The notes beneath the pieces were generated by a model, which worked only from the letters and a program-made list of their open reading frames with translations, was not told the DNA's origin and did no database searches. DNA of 26,337 nucleotides from a virus: positions 1 through 26,337 of the IMG/VR virus record IMGVR_UViG_3300048918_000369; one strand, given 5' to 3'. The position numbers and the translations under genes were made by a program. The stretch's first letter is position 1. Each line of letters opens with the position of its first letter. This document shows positions 611 to 4,959 of the stretch, piece after piece.

Positions 611-814
611 GTGAGTGATAGGTGCCGTGGAACGGTTTGCCGGGTGGAGTATAGAGGAGACTTTATAGCTCTATCGATGCTGGGAGGCATGGAGCACTGT
701 CGAAGGTGTGCCGGCAACGAGATAAGTAAATGGGACTGGTGGTGTCTACCGCTGGTTTTTATTCGAGTCTTTTATTTCCCCAATAGATTTTATGCAAACC
801 AAATTTTCTATTAA
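611..814 (+). CDS. doubtful small Cys-rich ORF
   Basis: A GTG-started frame of 67 residues fills the gap between the LRR gene and the DnaA-like gene and overlaps the latter by 23 bases. It has a CRRC motif and a hydrophobic, aromatic C-terminal half. There is no convincing ribosome binding site and I recognise no family. It may be a spurious frame across a leader; apart from this I see nothing in 599-791. Confidence 0.2.
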   Translation: MSDRCRGTVCRVEYRGDFIALSMLGGMEHCRRCAGNEISKWDWWCLPLVFIRVFYFPNRFYANQIFY

Positions 815-1160
815 AGAGGAATCTCAGTTAGTACGCCCAAAGGATGTTATATACCGAGAGGTGATAGCTATCGTAGATGTGGTGTCGGTTCACTTCGGAG
901 TATCGAAGGAAGCTATTTGCGGCAATAACAGGAACGCGCTGGGCTCCAAATGCAGGTTTATCTGCATGTATTTAATGATACAGATACCTGAGCTATCACT
1001 ATCTAAGGTGGCAAATCATTTCGGTAGGGCTAACCATACAACCACGCTACATGCTATCTCCAGTGTAGCCCAAATGATCAAAGAAAATGATGCTTACAGA
1101 GATGACATCATAGTAATAATTGATCGTTTGAATGAATCGCTTGAGCAGACTGCAAAATAG
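792..1160 (+). CDS. stand-alone DnaA domain IV-like DNA-binding protein
   Basis: The 122-residue protein matches the C-terminal DNA-binding domain of the replication initiator DnaA. A helical N-terminal part (about residues 20-45) is followed by SLSKVANHFGRANHTTTLHA around residues 69-88, which corresponds to the DnaA signature that contacts the DnaA box. Full-length DnaA is about 450 residues; the AAA+ ATPase and DnaB-interaction domains are absent here, so this protein can bind DNA but cannot assemble the ATP-dependent filament. It sits directly before an initiator-like gene containing an array of palindromes. It may bind phage origin sequences, compete with host DnaA, or act as a regulator. 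The family assignment is secure; the role is inferred. Confidence 0.8.
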   Translation: MQTKFSIKEESQLVRPKDVIYREVIAIVDVVSVHFGVSKEAICGNNRNALGSKCRFICMYLMIQIPELSLSKVANHFGRANHTTTLHAISSVAQMIKENDAYRDDIIVIIDRLNESLEQTAK

Positions 1161-1164
1161 CATA

Positions 1165-1608
1165 TGATATAACAGGTGTTATAACACAAGTAATAACAGG
1201 ATGGCAAGGAAGGTATATATACAGTTGTTTATCGGGGATTGGATACGTGATACCAGGCGCATGAGCGTACCTGCTCGGGGTATGTATACGGAGCTTCTTA
1301 TGCATCTGGATATGAGTGAAACACCTGGTGTTATGGATTGTGTTATAACAGAGCTACCATTTCTGTTAGGCGTCTGTTATGAGTCTGTTATAACACTCCT
1401 GAATGAGATTGTTATAACGGGTGTTATAACACGTGAGGAATTGCCAGATGGAAAAGTAAGGCTTAGGGATGATGCGATGGTGGCCAGATACGCCAAGAGT
1501 GCAGTAAAATCAAGGGCTGGCAGTGAGGCGATGAAAAAAAGGTGGGGCAAGGGAAAAAAAGAAACGGAACAGCCTGTTATAACTTCTGTTATAACAGATG
1601 ATATAACC
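1165..1608. repeat. iteron-like array of TGTTATAACA palindromes
   Basis: Five exact copies of the 10-bp palindrome TGTTATAACA start at 1177, 1341, 1386, 1422 and 1587. Copies with one mismatch start at 1165, 1410 and 1575, and two-mismatch copies at 1189 and 1599. Many lie on a 12-bp grid: 1165/1177/1189, 1410/1422 and 1575/1587/1599. The first cluster is just upstream of the initiator start codon and the others are within the gene, where they force repeated Val-Ile-Thr codon runs. The number, palindromy and spacing point to protein binding sites. Confidence 0.8.
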
Positions 1609-1650
1609 CATAATGGTAATGGTAATAATAATGATAACAGGGATAGTGAA
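1165..1650. other. candidate phage replication origin
   Basis: The palindrome array ends at 1608 and is followed to about 1645 by an AT-rich stretch coding for an Asn/Gly/Asp linker. Iterons inside an initiator gene followed by an AT-rich segment is the arrangement of the lambda origin within gene O. The inference rests on layout and on the replication-like products of the three surrounding genes. An operator array for autoregulation is the alternative. Confidence 0.5.
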
Positions 1651-2163
1651 AGTGGGGGTGCAGGGGGAGAAAGCGAAAGGGAGCCAGAAACGGTGCGCAT
1701 AAACAGCAGCAGCTACTTGTCCGTGGATGATTGCTTGCAGGCTTTCCTAGAAACGAACATATGCGCAGAAAGCAGGGACGTGATACTGATGCAGAAGTGC
1801 GCCGAAGTGAAGAGGCGCATGGACGATAAACTGCCGAGAGATCTTGACTGGGAGTACGGGTGGTTACTAAGATGGGGTAAAGCTTTCAATCAAGGACTTA
1901 AAGCCGCCCTGCAACCGAATAGAGTGCTTCATGAGTGGGCCAGCCACTTCTTTAACTGGATGATGAAACGAGATACAAGCAAAGAACCTGAAAAACTACA
2001 CGAGTATGCAAACAACGGCAATAGCAGTAACGGATCTAGTGCAAAGGCAGCAGGCGCTGCTGGGCGCGGGGGAACGCTTAATGACCTTGCGCAGCTTAAA
2101 CGTGGTGCAGCGCCAGGTGGTAATGAACGAACTGAACTCACCTCGTTTGAATTGGTTGACTGA
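1201..2163 (+). CDS. DUF1376-type replication initiation protein
   Basis: The N-terminal 100 residues carry the DUF1376 pattern: a start like YIQLFIGDWIRDTRRMS, then ARGMYTELLMHL. This module is found at the N-terminus of many phage replication proteins and is thought to bind DNA. Residues about 115-175 are a charged, Asn/Gly/Ser-rich linker. The C-terminal part (about 176-320) is helical at first and ends in a Gly/Ala-rich low-complexity tail. The Val-Ile-Thr triplets at residues 48-78 and 126-137 reflect the palindromes in the DNA. By analogy with lambda O or other phage initiators it would bind an origin in its own gene and recruit a helicase-loading partner, for which the next gene is a candidate. 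The family call is fairly secure; the initiator role is inferred. Confidence 0.7.
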   Translation: MARKVYIQLFIGDWIRDTRRMSVPARGMYTELLMHLDMSETPGVMDCVITELPFLLGVCYESVITLLNEIVITGVITREELPDGKVRLRDDAMVARYAKSAVKSRAGSEAMKKRWGKGKKETEQPVITSVITDDITHNGNGNNNDNRDSESGGAGGESEREPETVRINSSSYLSVDDCLQAFLETNICAESRDVILMQKCAEVKRRMDDKLPRDLDWEYGWLLRWGKAFNQGLKAALQPNRVLHEWASHFFNWMMKRDTSKEPEKLHEYANNGNSSNGSSAKAAGAAGRGGTLNDLAQLKRGAAPGGNERTELTSFELVD

Positions 2164-2929
2164 GGATGAGGTGCATAACAAGTTGATAGATGTATGGCAG
2201 GAGGTGAAGGTATTGACCGGGGCTGTGCTGTACAAGATGGGTGAGGGACTGGAGGAGCAGTTGGAGGTGCTGAAGCTGTTTGTGGCGAGTCACCCGCAGT
2301 TTACGGGGCTTACGGTGAAGGAGATAGCGCATGCCTTTTACCTGAATGCGCAGGGTGAGTATGGTGAGGTGTACCGGCACTATAACAAGGAGCTGAATGC
2401 TGAGTTTGTAGGGGATGTGCTGCGGGCGTATGTGAAGTATAAACGGGTGATCTATAGCCAAAGTGGCAAGGCGATAAAGGATGTGCTGAACCCGGAAGCG
2501 GCTAAGGTGCGTGTGGCATTGCCAGGTGAGGAGGAGCTGCAGCAGCTGGTGCAGATGCACTATGAGTTGTACCAGCAGGGATTGAAAGACTTTATAGTGA
2601 TGCCGGTGACGGTGTATAAGCTGATGAGGAAGTATGGTGGGATAAGCATTAGCAGTAAAGAGCACTGGCGGAGCCTGGTGTTCTATGGGATGAGGGAGCG
2701 TAAGTATTTCGGTGAACAGTCGACGCTGCGGAAGGATGCCTGGGAGAAGGAGCGGATAGAGCGCGCAAGGGCGATATATAGCTGCTATGCGCGTGAGGGG
2801 TGGATATCGTGGGCGGAATACCGGATGGTGGTAGATACGTTTAGGAAGATGCTGTACCTGAGTGTGTTTGAAGCGATGAGCTATATGGGTGTGAAGGACA
2901 TTTTTAAGGAGGTGAGCTGTGAAAGATGA
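2006..2929 (+). CDS. replication-associated protein, possible helicase loader
   Basis: The longest form has 307 residues and overlaps the initiator gene by 158 bases in another frame. Starts at 2081 or 2123 would shorten the overlap; 2081 has a G-rich stretch about seven bases upstream, so the true start is uncertain. The core (from LTEDEVHNKLIDVW to about residue 145) is helical, with LTVKEIAHAFYLNAQGEYGEV and a following VLRAYVKYKR, a pattern I associate with replication-region proteins of Bacteroidota phages. There is no Walker motif, so it is not a DnaC-type ATPase. Its position right after an initiator gene suggests a DnaT/P-like partner role, but that is inference from context. Confidence 0.5.
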   Translation: MQTTAIAVTDLVQRQQALLGAGERLMTLRSLNVVQRQVVMNELNSPRLNWLTEDEVHNKLIDVWQEVKVLTGAVLYKMGEGLEEQLEVLKLFVASHPQFTGLTVKEIAHAFYLNAQGEYGEVYRHYNKELNAEFVGDVLRAYVKYKRVIYSQSGKAIKDVLNPEAAKVRVALPGEEELQQLVQMHYELYQQGLKDFIVMPVTVYKLMRKYGGISISSKEHWRSLVFYGMRERKYFGEQSTLRKDAWEKERIERARAIYSCYAREGWISWAEYRMVVDTFRKMLYLSVFEAMSYMGVKDIFKEVSCER

Positions 2930-3059
2930 GCAAGAAGTGATACCGGAGCCTGAGCGCAGGTGGGAGGGGTGTACGGGAATGTGTGAGCTAGTAGCACAGT
3001 GGTGCGGGCTGGTGTGTAAGGTGTGTGGATGGGATGATGTGCCGGTATCAGGAAGTTAA
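2919..3059 (+). CDS. 46-residue Cys-rich protein
   Basis: The GTG at 2919 is preceded by a strong Shine-Dalgarno sequence, AAGGAGGT at 2906-2913, which lies within the preceding gene; the two genes overlap by 11 bases. The product has five cysteines after an acidic N-terminus, arranged CTGMC, then C and CKVC, all within 23 residues, which suggests a small metal-binding knuckle. I recognise no family. The ribosome site and tight coupling are the main support for its being real. Confidence 0.55.
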   Translation: MKDEQEVIPEPERRWEGCTGMCELVAQWCGLVCKVCGWDDVPVSGS

Positions 3060-3094
3060 AAAGTGAAAGATTAAAAAGTAAAAAAAATAAGCAT

Positions 3095-3412
3095 ATGCTA
3101 ACGCCTAAAACAGCTGCAGCTTTTTACAACTGCAACCAACAAATCGAAAGAGCTGAGAAGTTATTGGTAGATGTAACAAAAATGATCGACAAGATTGATC
3201 CGAAGGAATTGCGTGATTCATTTGGGAGGGTTCAGCACTCTTTGCAGTTGGGTATTCCTAGCATCGGATCAAGTCATTACATAGTAAACGTAGATCCTGA
3301 GTTGGCAGTGATCATTATAGAGGCTCAGATTGTTAAGTACAAAGAGCAACTAAAGGCTCTCAATGTATTGGCTGGGAAGGAGTGTGTAAATACTGAAACT
3401 GCTCAAAACTAA
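3095..3412 (+). CDS. hypothetical protein with helical N- and C-termini
   Basis: The 105-residue product has a helical N-terminus (residues 1-50, rich in Lys and Asp) and a C-terminal helix (about 72-95), separated by a Gly/Ser-rich middle. No catalytic or binding motif is visible. It follows a 35-base AT-rich gap and sits in the same direction as its neighbours, in the early-type accessory block. It could be a small phage accessory protein; I do not recognise it. Confidence 0.6.
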   Translation: MLTPKTAAAFYNCNQQIERAEKLLVDVTKMIDKIDPKELRDSFGRVQHSLQLGIPSIGSSHYIVNVDPELAVIIIEAQIVKYKEQLKALNVLAGKECVNTETAQN

Positions 3413-3422
3413 CCTGACCATT

Positions 3423-3662
3423 ATGAGAAACTCACGAACACCGATGACGGATAAGCCTATAGGGCTGGGTGCTTTTAATGGTGGTATCAGGAAGCAATCT
3501 GTGGCTGTAAAGCGCCGGGAGGTGGAGAAGGTGCCTATGTATGTGCCGGAGCTGAAGTGTACTGTGTATGTGGTACCTGGTACTGATATGGCTACTGTCA
3601 TTGCTAAGTATAGGGCTCAAAAGGAATTTGAGCGGGGATTGTTGAGGGGGAATAAAAAGTAA
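3423..3662 (+). CDS. hypothetical small basic protein
   Basis: The 79-residue product is basic, with a Gly-rich N-terminus (PIGLGAFNGGIRK) and a hydrophobic strand pattern (MYVPELKCTVYVVPG) followed by a helix. It starts 10 bases after the previous stop and ends 6 bases before the next start, which supports a shared transcript. No family is recognised. Confidence 0.6.
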   Translation: MRNSRTPMTDKPIGLGAFNGGIRKQSVAVKRREVEKVPMYVPELKCTVYVVPGTDMATVIAKYRAQKEFERGLLRGNKK

Positions 3663-3668
3663 GGGAGT

Positions 3669-4526
3669 ATGGAGATAACAGACAAAGGGAATAACATGTA
3701 TTATAAAGAGATGGATCTATTTGGGAATGAAGAAATTCGCATCGTAACGAGTAAAAACAATCGTGTACAAACATCGTTTACGGATTACGATGGTTTTGTT
3801 GAGAAGTTTGAACCTAAAAAGACAACTGATGACTGTTACACACCTTCGGAAGTTTATAACACCATCGTAAAGTATGTATGCGAACAGGTAGATCTTACTG
3901 GACATAAGATAATAAGGCCATTTTACCCTGGAGGTGACTATCAAAGTATTGAATATAGCATCACGGACGTAGTAATCGATAATCCTCCTTTTTCAATTGT
4001 ATCGCAGATTGCCAAATTTTACATTAATAGAGGTGTGAAGTTTTTCATTTTCGCTCCCCACATGACTTTATTCTCTTCTGATTTGAACTGCACATGTGTT
4101 GTTTGCGGAGCTAGTATTGTTTACGAAAATGGCGCAAATGTCAAGACATCTTTTTTATCAAACTTATTTGGAGATAAACAGGTAATTGCCACACCAGAGC
4201 TATACGCGGCCTTAAAAATTATTAATAAAAACGAGATAGAGCTGCCGAAGTATCAATATCCAAACCACGTATTGACTGTGTCGAATGTTCAGAAGTTTGT
4301 GGAGAGAGGAATAAATTTCTCCGTTGAAAGAAAACATATCAAACACATTCGGCGTCTTGATGACCAAACTAAGCATAATAAGTCCCTTTTTGGTAGTGGG
4401 TTTCTTTTATCCGATAAAGCAGCAGCCGATAAAGCAGCAGCCGATAAAGCAGCAGCCGATAAAGCAAATATAATCGAGTGGAAACTGTCAGAAAGGGAAT
4501 TGAAAATAATCAGCGATTTAGGCTAA
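3669..4526 (+). CDS. adenine-specific DNA methyltransferase, EcoRI-methylase-like
   Basis: The key feature is motif IV, DNPPFS, at residues 104-109, diagnostic of N6-adenine methyltransferases. It is preceded by YTPSEVYNTI (57-66) and PFYPGG (84-89), which take the place of the usual motif I region and resemble the EcoRI-methylase-like family found in phages. At 285 residues it is a full-length stand-alone enzyme with no restriction partner nearby, so anti-restriction or regulatory methylation is the likely role. An internal ATG at 3696 has a better Shine-Dalgarno (AAAGGGA) than the one at 3669, so the true protein may lack nine residues. A DKAAA repeat lies near the C-terminus. Confidence 0.75.
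   Translation: MEITDKGNNMYYKEMDLFGNEEIRIVTSKNNRVQTSFTDYDGFVEKFEPKKTTDDCYTPSEVYNTIVKYVCEQVDLTGHKIIRPFYPGGDYQSIEYSITDVVIDNPPFSIVSQIAKFYINRGVKFFIFAPHMTLFSSDLNCTCVVCGASIVYENGANVKTSFLSNLFGDKQVIATPELYAALKIINKNEIELPKYQYPNHVLTVSNVQKFVERGINFSVERKHIKHIRRLDDQTKHNKSLFGSGFLLSDKAAADKAAADKAAADKANIIEWKLSERELKIISDLG
4413..4466 (+). repeat. 15-bp in-frame tandem repeat (DKAAA units)
   Basis: The unit GATAAAGCAGCAGCC occurs three times from 4413, plus nine bases of a fourth copy. It codes for repeated Asp-Lys-Ala-Ala-Ala near the end of the methyltransferase, probably a charged helix or linker. Copies are identical, so the number may vary by replication slippage without breaking the frame. Confidence 0.9.
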
Positions 4527-4560: not shown

Positions 4561-4959
4561 ATGTCAATGGAGATAACTGGATTTATAGATGCAATGTGGC
4601 CTACGGTGCAGGTGACGGAGAAGTTTAAGAAGCGTGAGTTCGTGTTGGAGATCGAGACGAATATTAATGGCAACGTCTATAGTGACTTTGCAAAGTTCCA
4701 GCTATTGAATGGGCATTGCGCATTGGCTGATGACTTTGCGAAGGGAGATAAAGTTGAAGTGCATTTTAAGATAACCGGGACAAAGTGGGAGCGAGATGGA
4801 AAGGTTAGCTTCTTCACTAATCTTACTGCTTTACGTATTCACGCTGTACAACAGACTTATGCGCCAGTACAACCGAGTACACCTGCCGTGAATGCTGAAG
4901 TACAAAAGGAAGCTTTCCAAGCGATGCAGCCGAATTCGATGGATGATATCCCTTTCTAA
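4561..4959 (+). CDS. DUF3127 single-stranded DNA binding-like protein
   Basis: Residues 1-100 match the DUF3127 pattern (MEITGFIDAM, then KREFVLEIET, then a strand-rich part), a family of OB-fold-like proteins in Bacteroidota and their phages. The protein ends in a Gln/Pro/Ala linker and the tip MDDIPF, the conserved acidic end by which SSB recruits replication and repair enzymes. It has 132 residues, close to the usual family size. The SSB role is inferred from the fold family, the tip and the position among DNA-metabolism genes. Confidence 0.75.
   Translation: MSMEITGFIDAMWPTVQVTEKFKKREFVLEIETNINGNVYSDFAKFQLLNGHCALADDFAKGDKVEVHFKITGTKWERDGKVSFFTNLTALRIHAVQQTYAPVQPSTPAVNAEVQKEAFQAMQPNSMDDIPF

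Follow-up and report, generated by a model that had tools for sequence, protein, structure and literature searches.

Palindromes in and before a DUF1376-type phage gene as likely intragenic iterons of a lambda-O-type origin

Why would a phage keep ten short palindromes in and just before a single protein-coding gene, and which protein, if any, reads them? These questions are raised by a linear IMG/VR virus record of 26,337 bases, analysed here over its full length and called the window throughout. The record likely represents a phage of Bacteroidota, apparently a contractile-tailed one: it carries tail sheath, tape measure and baseplate genes, and its GpA terminase is closest to those of Cellulophaga and Flavobacterium phages. 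The original prediction, made from sequence alone, took the palindromes for an iteron array in an initiator gene, resembling the lambda O origin. This is supported and remains the best-supported reading, because the array is conserved in a homologous gene that is followed by a gene for a DnaC-like helicase loader, and because DUF1376 genes in other phages precede DnaC, IstB or DnaB genes. Both binding and origin activity are inferred.

The array and its conservation at the DNA level

The claim of ten TGTTATAACA-like palindromes, five of them exact, in and just before the DUF1376 gene held, positions included. The sites start at 1165, 1177, 1189, 1341, 1386, 1410, 1422, 1575, 1587 and 1599 (span 1165-1608); the copies at 1177, 1341, 1386, 1422 and 1587 are exact, three others carry one mismatch and two carry two mismatches. 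The proposed 12-bp spacings (1165/1177/1189, 1410/1422 and 1575/1587/1599) held as well, and seven of the ten sites fall inside the initiator gene. Specifically, the first cluster (TGATATAACA, TGTTATAACA, AGTAATAACA; 1165..1198) proceeds in 12-bp steps through non-coding DNA and fills the 40 bp ahead of the start codon (ATG at 1201), while a degenerate TGTTATGGAT and an exact TGTTATAACA, again one 12-bp step apart, occupy 1329..1350. The middle cluster (1386..1431) consists of the sites at 1386, 1410 and 1422, two exact and one with a single mismatch, and the last (TGTTATAACT, TGTTATAACA, TGATATAACC; 1575..1608) runs in 12-bp steps through linker-coding DNA just past a motif discussed below. 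No exact TGTTATAACA copy occurs outside the array in the whole 26,337-base record, and sites with at most two mismatches number 27 record-wide against 14.2 +/- 3.8 in shuffles, none of the 100 shuffles reaching 27. With ten palindromes, mostly at 12-bp steps, the window's array is the cleanest found in this analysis.

The coding sequence had further been claimed to be constrained to keep the sites, as suggested by its repeated Val-Ile-Thr, and this held as a constraint on the DNA. All in-gene copies of the window encode (V/D)IT in a single frame, and each of the six V-I-T occurrences is spelled GTT ATA AC, yet GTT makes up only 11% of this phage's Val codons. When the initiator gene was shuffled among synonymous codons, 0.03 exact sites were expected where 4 are observed, and 0.54 sites with at most one mismatch where 6 are observed (p < 5e-5). 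The first triplet, being non-coding, cannot be explained by a peptide repeat at all. The biased spelling, the synonymous shuffles and the non-coding copies before the ATG thereby identify the repeat as a feature of the DNA.

Conservation agrees with this. Viral contigs were scanned, without any protein information, for three GTTATAAC separated by flexible gaps; among the 70 stretches returned was the phage contig L269, whose gene turned out to be a nearly full-length homologue of the window's initiator (33% identity, E 1e-49). This gene also holds ten sites, nine of which form three triplets at exact 12-bp steps. Its first triplet lies in the protein region that matches the window's sites at 1329..1350, and its last triplet, SVITSVITNDIT, sits on the same codons as in the window (VITSVIT-DIT). 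The counterpart of the window's middle cluster is a triplet in another reading frame, read as CNNNSNNRCYN, in which Asn-Asn/Cys-Tyr-Asn replaces Val-Ile-Thr; the constraint therefore acts on DNA and not on Val-Ile-Thr. Absence of the palindromes from close relatives would have counted against the prediction, and they are instead conserved in L269, the sole close relative found.

No other close homologue of the window initiator was present among 2.9 million viral contigs. Neither viral contigs nor annotated phages yielded a close relative in protein searches with the initiator, the product of its partner gene or the DnaA-like protein. A prophage search of 396 genomes in the family of a Puia MAG gave distant members only, all without the array, and a pattern scan of genome contigs gave chiefly low-complexity or repetitive arrays. 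Elsewhere, pairs of GTTATAAC exactly 12 bp apart are scattered three to five times over several kb in phage contigs L083, L118, L077 and L088, without forming a compact array. Ten further viral contigs (L206, L209, L218, L220, L232, L236, L237, L257, L261 and L262) have in common an array of four GTTATAAC, with spacings of 18, 18 and 45, outside the open frames found by script. Small MazE/AbrB-like genes in L230 (10942-11193, minus strand) and L212 (3136-3411, plus strand) contain three to five in-frame GTTATAAC (V-I-T) copies. Directly upstream of its initiator homologue, L269 itself carries a reverse transcriptase gene and repeated GCGGGCTTCGGCCTGTCGTTC stretches (at 3400-4150 and 2150-3274 (-)), a region that resembles a diversity-generating retroelement with two variable repeats and a template.

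The initiator gene, its neighbourhood and the origin reading

The gene that contains most of the sites (1201..2163, plus strand) encodes a protein of 320 aa, which is classed as a DUF1376-type initiator on the strength of a weak Pfam match, the PHROG annotation primosomal protein, the homologue in L269 and structure prediction. Its score against DUF1376 (PF07120) is 18.3 bits, below the cut-off of 30.1, while the full-length homologue in L269 scores 31.0, above the cut-off. An alignment-based AF2 model, weak overall (pLDDT 42.6), predicts a winged helix at residues 23-89 (for the most part with a block pLDDT of about 58-86). A long helix then runs to residue 116, followed by a low-confidence linker at 117-174, taken as disordered, and a helical C-terminal part at 175-271; the last triplet of sites encodes residues 125-136, within this linker. 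Foldseek lists mostly winged-helix DNA-binding proteins (MarR, CodY and ArsR types), none below E 0.001.

Upstream and adjoining the initiator gene lies a gene for a 122-aa protein (792..1160, plus strand), of which it had been claimed that it encodes only a DnaA domain IV. This held: Bac_DnaA_C (PF08299) is the sole domain and matches over 66 residues (26-91; E 3.3e-16; 59.5 bits against a cut-off of 31.5). The next gene downstream (2006..2929, plus strand; 307 aa), termed the partner gene, overlaps the initiator gene by 158 bp. By analogy with L269 it occupies the position of a helicase loader; this function is not shown, and neither Pfam nor PHROG searches revealed a recognisable loader signature, a single-sequence fold model being too low in confidence. 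The same replication region includes a gene for an SSB-like protein (4561..4959, plus strand; PHROG single-strand binding protein, E 2.5e-15) and, farther along, beyond the initiator and partner genes, one for a RuvC-like resolvase. Two repeats in the window are minor observations: at positions 1-180, a unit of about 66 bp (CAATCAGGCACTGACGACGGTAACGCTGGGTGC...) occurs three times within an open frame that matches BspA-type leucine-rich repeats, and a run of AAADK repeats (SDKAAADKAAADKAAADKA) at 4440-4500 ends a phrog_21498 protein.

The replication context of the relatives is shown more directly. In L269, the gene after the initiator homologue encodes a DnaC-like helicase loader (PHROG E 1.3e-16). 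In annotated phages, retrieved with the N-terminal domain of a different DUF1376 protein, the DUF1376 gene is followed by a DnaC/helicase-loader, IstB-like, DnaB helicase or DnaA-like domain gene, and one such DUF1376 gene is itself annotated as replication protein O. This neighbourhood is the lambda O-P arrangement. Phage DUF1376 proteins (PHROG 3992 and 9327, 'primosomal protein') share the same N-terminal domain and, in complete phages, the same DnaC/IstB-like/DnaB neighbourhood; so far, they have been described only as of unknown function or as primosomal proteins.

The parallel with lambda extends to the architecture of the origin. The middle of the lambdoid O gene contains both iterons and an AT tract, and Stx phages likewise have them within the initiator's coding sequence (PMC7466680); the order of lambda O followed by a helicase-loader gene is that of L269 and the annotated DUF1376 phages. 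The systems differ in that lambda has four iterons and Stx phages six, with an adjacent AT tract, whereas the window's 10-bp palindromes number ten, follow 12-bp steps and form about four clusters, the first of which precedes the gene; the window protein, whose likeness to lambda O is drawn here from gene architecture alone, falls under DUF1376 and the primosomal protein PHROGs in family searches. An AT-rich stretch had been said to follow the sites, which held only in part: the candidate unwinding element at 1577..1636 (60 bp, 77% A+T, 99.9th percentile) is present but modest and overlaps the last cluster, and the most AT-rich place of the record lies away from the array, at 15.2 kb. TTATAAC had been noted not to be a standard DnaA box, and a search for DnaA boxes near the array found none. 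GC skew, a proposed check, is positive throughout the record and points to no origin.

As such, it is likely that the array represents the intragenic iterons of a lambda-O-type origin with the DUF1376 protein as binder, in a mechanism of which binding, unwinding and loading are all inferred. In this model, the iterons would belong to an origin lying within and just before the gene of its own initiator. The DUF1376-type protein would bind TGTTA/TAACA half-sites via its winged-helix domain and the basic motif AGSEAMKKRW, dimers or neighbouring monomers would fill each 10-bp palindrome, and the 12-bp steps would make for a helically shifted array. The bound copies, in some four clusters spanning 440 bp, would bend the DNA or wrap it and unwind a nearby AT-rich stretch, and the C-terminal domain of the initiator would recruit the helicase by way of the product of the overlapping partner gene. 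Since the first triplet stands immediately in front of the ATG, it may additionally let the initiator throttle its own expression. Against the origin reading stand the single close homologue, the modest AT element, the absence of GC-skew support, the unrecognised next gene, the weak Pfam score and the lack of any experiment. Nor does intragenic location prove an origin, since MazE/AbrB-like genes, which are not initiators, carry arrays of the same word.

Competing readings of the sites

The original prediction had left the binder undecided between two dedicated phage proteins, the DnaA-like and the DUF1376 protein. The alternative that the sites belong to the neighbouring stand-alone DnaA domain IV protein, acting as a phage-specific origin binder helped by the DUF1376 protein, can draw on the position of its gene directly upstream, on Rhizobium phage RHph_N28_2, which also pairs a DnaA-like domain protein with DUF1376, and on L126, which has a DnaA-like gene near a replisome-organizer-like gene. 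The usual target of DnaA domain IV is a non-palindromic box of 9 bp; in comparison with DnaA, the window's DnaA-like protein stands alone, without an AAA+ domain, and no DnaA boxes lie near. The DUF1376 protein is favoured, because no DnaA-like gene adjoins the array in L269 (a 4.7-kb contig, so short that the gene may sit elsewhere), and because L126 has the DnaA-like gene in a comparable region and no array. Across families, moreover, the repeated word tracks the motif of the DUF1376-type protein. The contrast of L269 and L126 rests on one case each and is merely suggestive, but the motif-word relation agrees with it, so that a DUF1376 binder appears likely, if only by inference, and a DnaA-like binder unlikely. 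In RHph_N28_2 (L544, 1186-2524), the DUF1376 gene comes first and the DnaA-like domain gene directly after it; the window's pairing thus recurs in a phage of another phylum. A candidate set of stand-alone domain IV proteins, namely 16 hits of the DnaA-like protein in a phage collection, was discarded: the six that were opened are full-length bacterial dnaA genes beside yidC, rnpA and dnaN and, being host DNA, are uninformative on stand-alone domain IV. Six records labelled 'Bacteriophage sp.' (L483-L488; MT838222, MT835860, MT835859, MT837747, MT836079 and MT836067) contain regions of the dnaA-dnaN-yidC-rnpA type and are host chromosome filed as phage.

Two further readings dispense with an origin at the array. 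The sites could be operators, through which the DUF1376 protein or another regulator controls its own operon while replication starts elsewhere; the first triplet does occupy the gap before the ATG, 10-bp palindromes fit a dimeric repressor, and in-frame arrays of the same word occur in MazE/AbrB-like genes. Most sites, however, are found as far as 400 bp into the gene and are grouped at 12 bp, and the relatives have a helicase-loading neighbourhood, which makes operators alone improbable; autoregulation on top of an origin role remains quite possible. Finally, the repeat might be a Val-Ile-Thr repeat kept at the protein level, or a recent product of DNA slippage, without function as DNA. In its favour, every in-gene copy of the window encodes (V/D)IT in one frame. 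This reading is all but ruled out by the non-coding copies before the ATG, the other frame used in L269, the synonymous shuffles (p < 5e-5) and the similar placement of clusters despite only 33% protein identity.

A motif-word association across initiator families

The preferred reading, iterons bound by the DUF1376-type protein, connects to a pattern that extends beyond this family. In several initiator families, the ten residues that end the winged-helix domain predict a word that recurs in that gene within the 150 bp that follow: AGxxGMxxRW, the class of the window, goes with ATAAC, AGxxGAxxRW with TGGCAA, and NGxxGGR with AACCC. The proposed word-specifying motif of the window is AGSEAMKKRW (residues 106-115; 1516..1545, plus strand), in which AG, A-M and RW are invariant with L269. 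Among the 70 array stretches were other phage replication genes, encoding a Lin1244_N protein (L227), a DUF6291 protein (L268) and a PHROG replication initiation protein (L223/L254), and in all of these, as in the window and L269, the sites come after a motif of the form AGxx(G/A)MxxRW. Phage DUF6291 and Lin1244_N proteins thus resemble the window protein in having AGxxGMxxRW followed by ATAAC half-sites in linker-coding DNA; they differ in their N-terminal domains and usually show looser half-sites instead of clean 12-bp palindromes. For DUF6291, 26 non-redundant genes were fetched by protein sequence and all included: the 135 bp behind the motif hold a mean of 5.1 ATAAC/GTTAT, against 2.5 in synonymous shuffles and 0.5 in the rest of the gene, and variants without Met (GKKGAAARW, GKEAADKRW, GRDAANKRW) have zero or one. 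The TGGCAA and AACCC pairs were first noticed in genes taken from genomes according to their Pfam family.

Once this hypothesis had been put in writing, new phages were fetched, selected either on the N-terminal domain or with a motif query of 22 residues, without reference to any DNA word. In the first later set (n=18), at least three AACCC occurred in 5/5 NGxxGGR genes and in 0/13 others (Fisher 1.2e-4). The motif query matched L554 (GMAKRW; 56% GC), with six ATAAC after the motif and seven in the whole 2.7-kb stretch, as well as L553 (GAKSRW) and L555 (GAEARW), both annotated as replication initiation proteins, each with two TGGCAA and no ATAAC. Among genes not chosen by word, the word of the gene's own class is present at least twice in 11/11 of the M class, 7/7 of the A class and 9/18 of the GGR class, and label permutation gives 27 genes observed against 10.6 expected (p <= 5e-5). 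The permutation pool includes the discovery genes, and the GGR class is diluted by two unrelated proteins (L022 and L065); the hold-out L550 (AGxxGAxxRW) is left out of the counts, its sequence ending right after the motif. Word lengths and thresholds were set after the first data had been seen, and the two-copy TGGCAA counts are small. The tests also treat genes as independent without correction for phylogeny, although many share ancestry, above all DUF6291. The pattern is therefore shown as an association: it is correlational, uncorrected for phylogeny and, in the GGR class, only half successful.

In a bolder reading, towards which the evidence tips by a narrow margin, initiator families that look unrelated share a motif at the end of the winged helix that sets the iteron word directly behind it, so that motif and origin would travel as a self-addressed module, with AGxxGMxxRW reading TGTTATAACA/ATAAC, AGxxGAxxRW reading (A)TGGCAA and NGxxGGR(P) reading AACCC. 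DUF1376, DUF6291 and Lin1244_N are widespread phage proteins whose functions are unknown or vaguely named. If the reading is true, their genes contain phage origins, which would become predictable from sequence in many uncultured phages, and initiator specificity would be readable from ten residues and directly testable. In the literature searched, from which most subscription journals were excluded, no report was found of sites within these initiator genes or of a motif-word relation, DUF1376 being merely named there; likewise, no two of the terms DUF6291, DUF4373, Lin1244 and 'replication initiation' were mentioned together in one paper.

A separate idea, that every family member has a private repeat word, was only weakly supported: by a repeat score against synonymous shuffles, 8/35 genes reached p <= 0.05, compared with 4/60 controls, and some of the eight had been chosen by word. 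DUF1376 proteins with xxAAxARW-like motifs (L551, L548, L544 and L542) tend to have ATGC-containing words behind the motif, and these may represent a fourth motif-word class.
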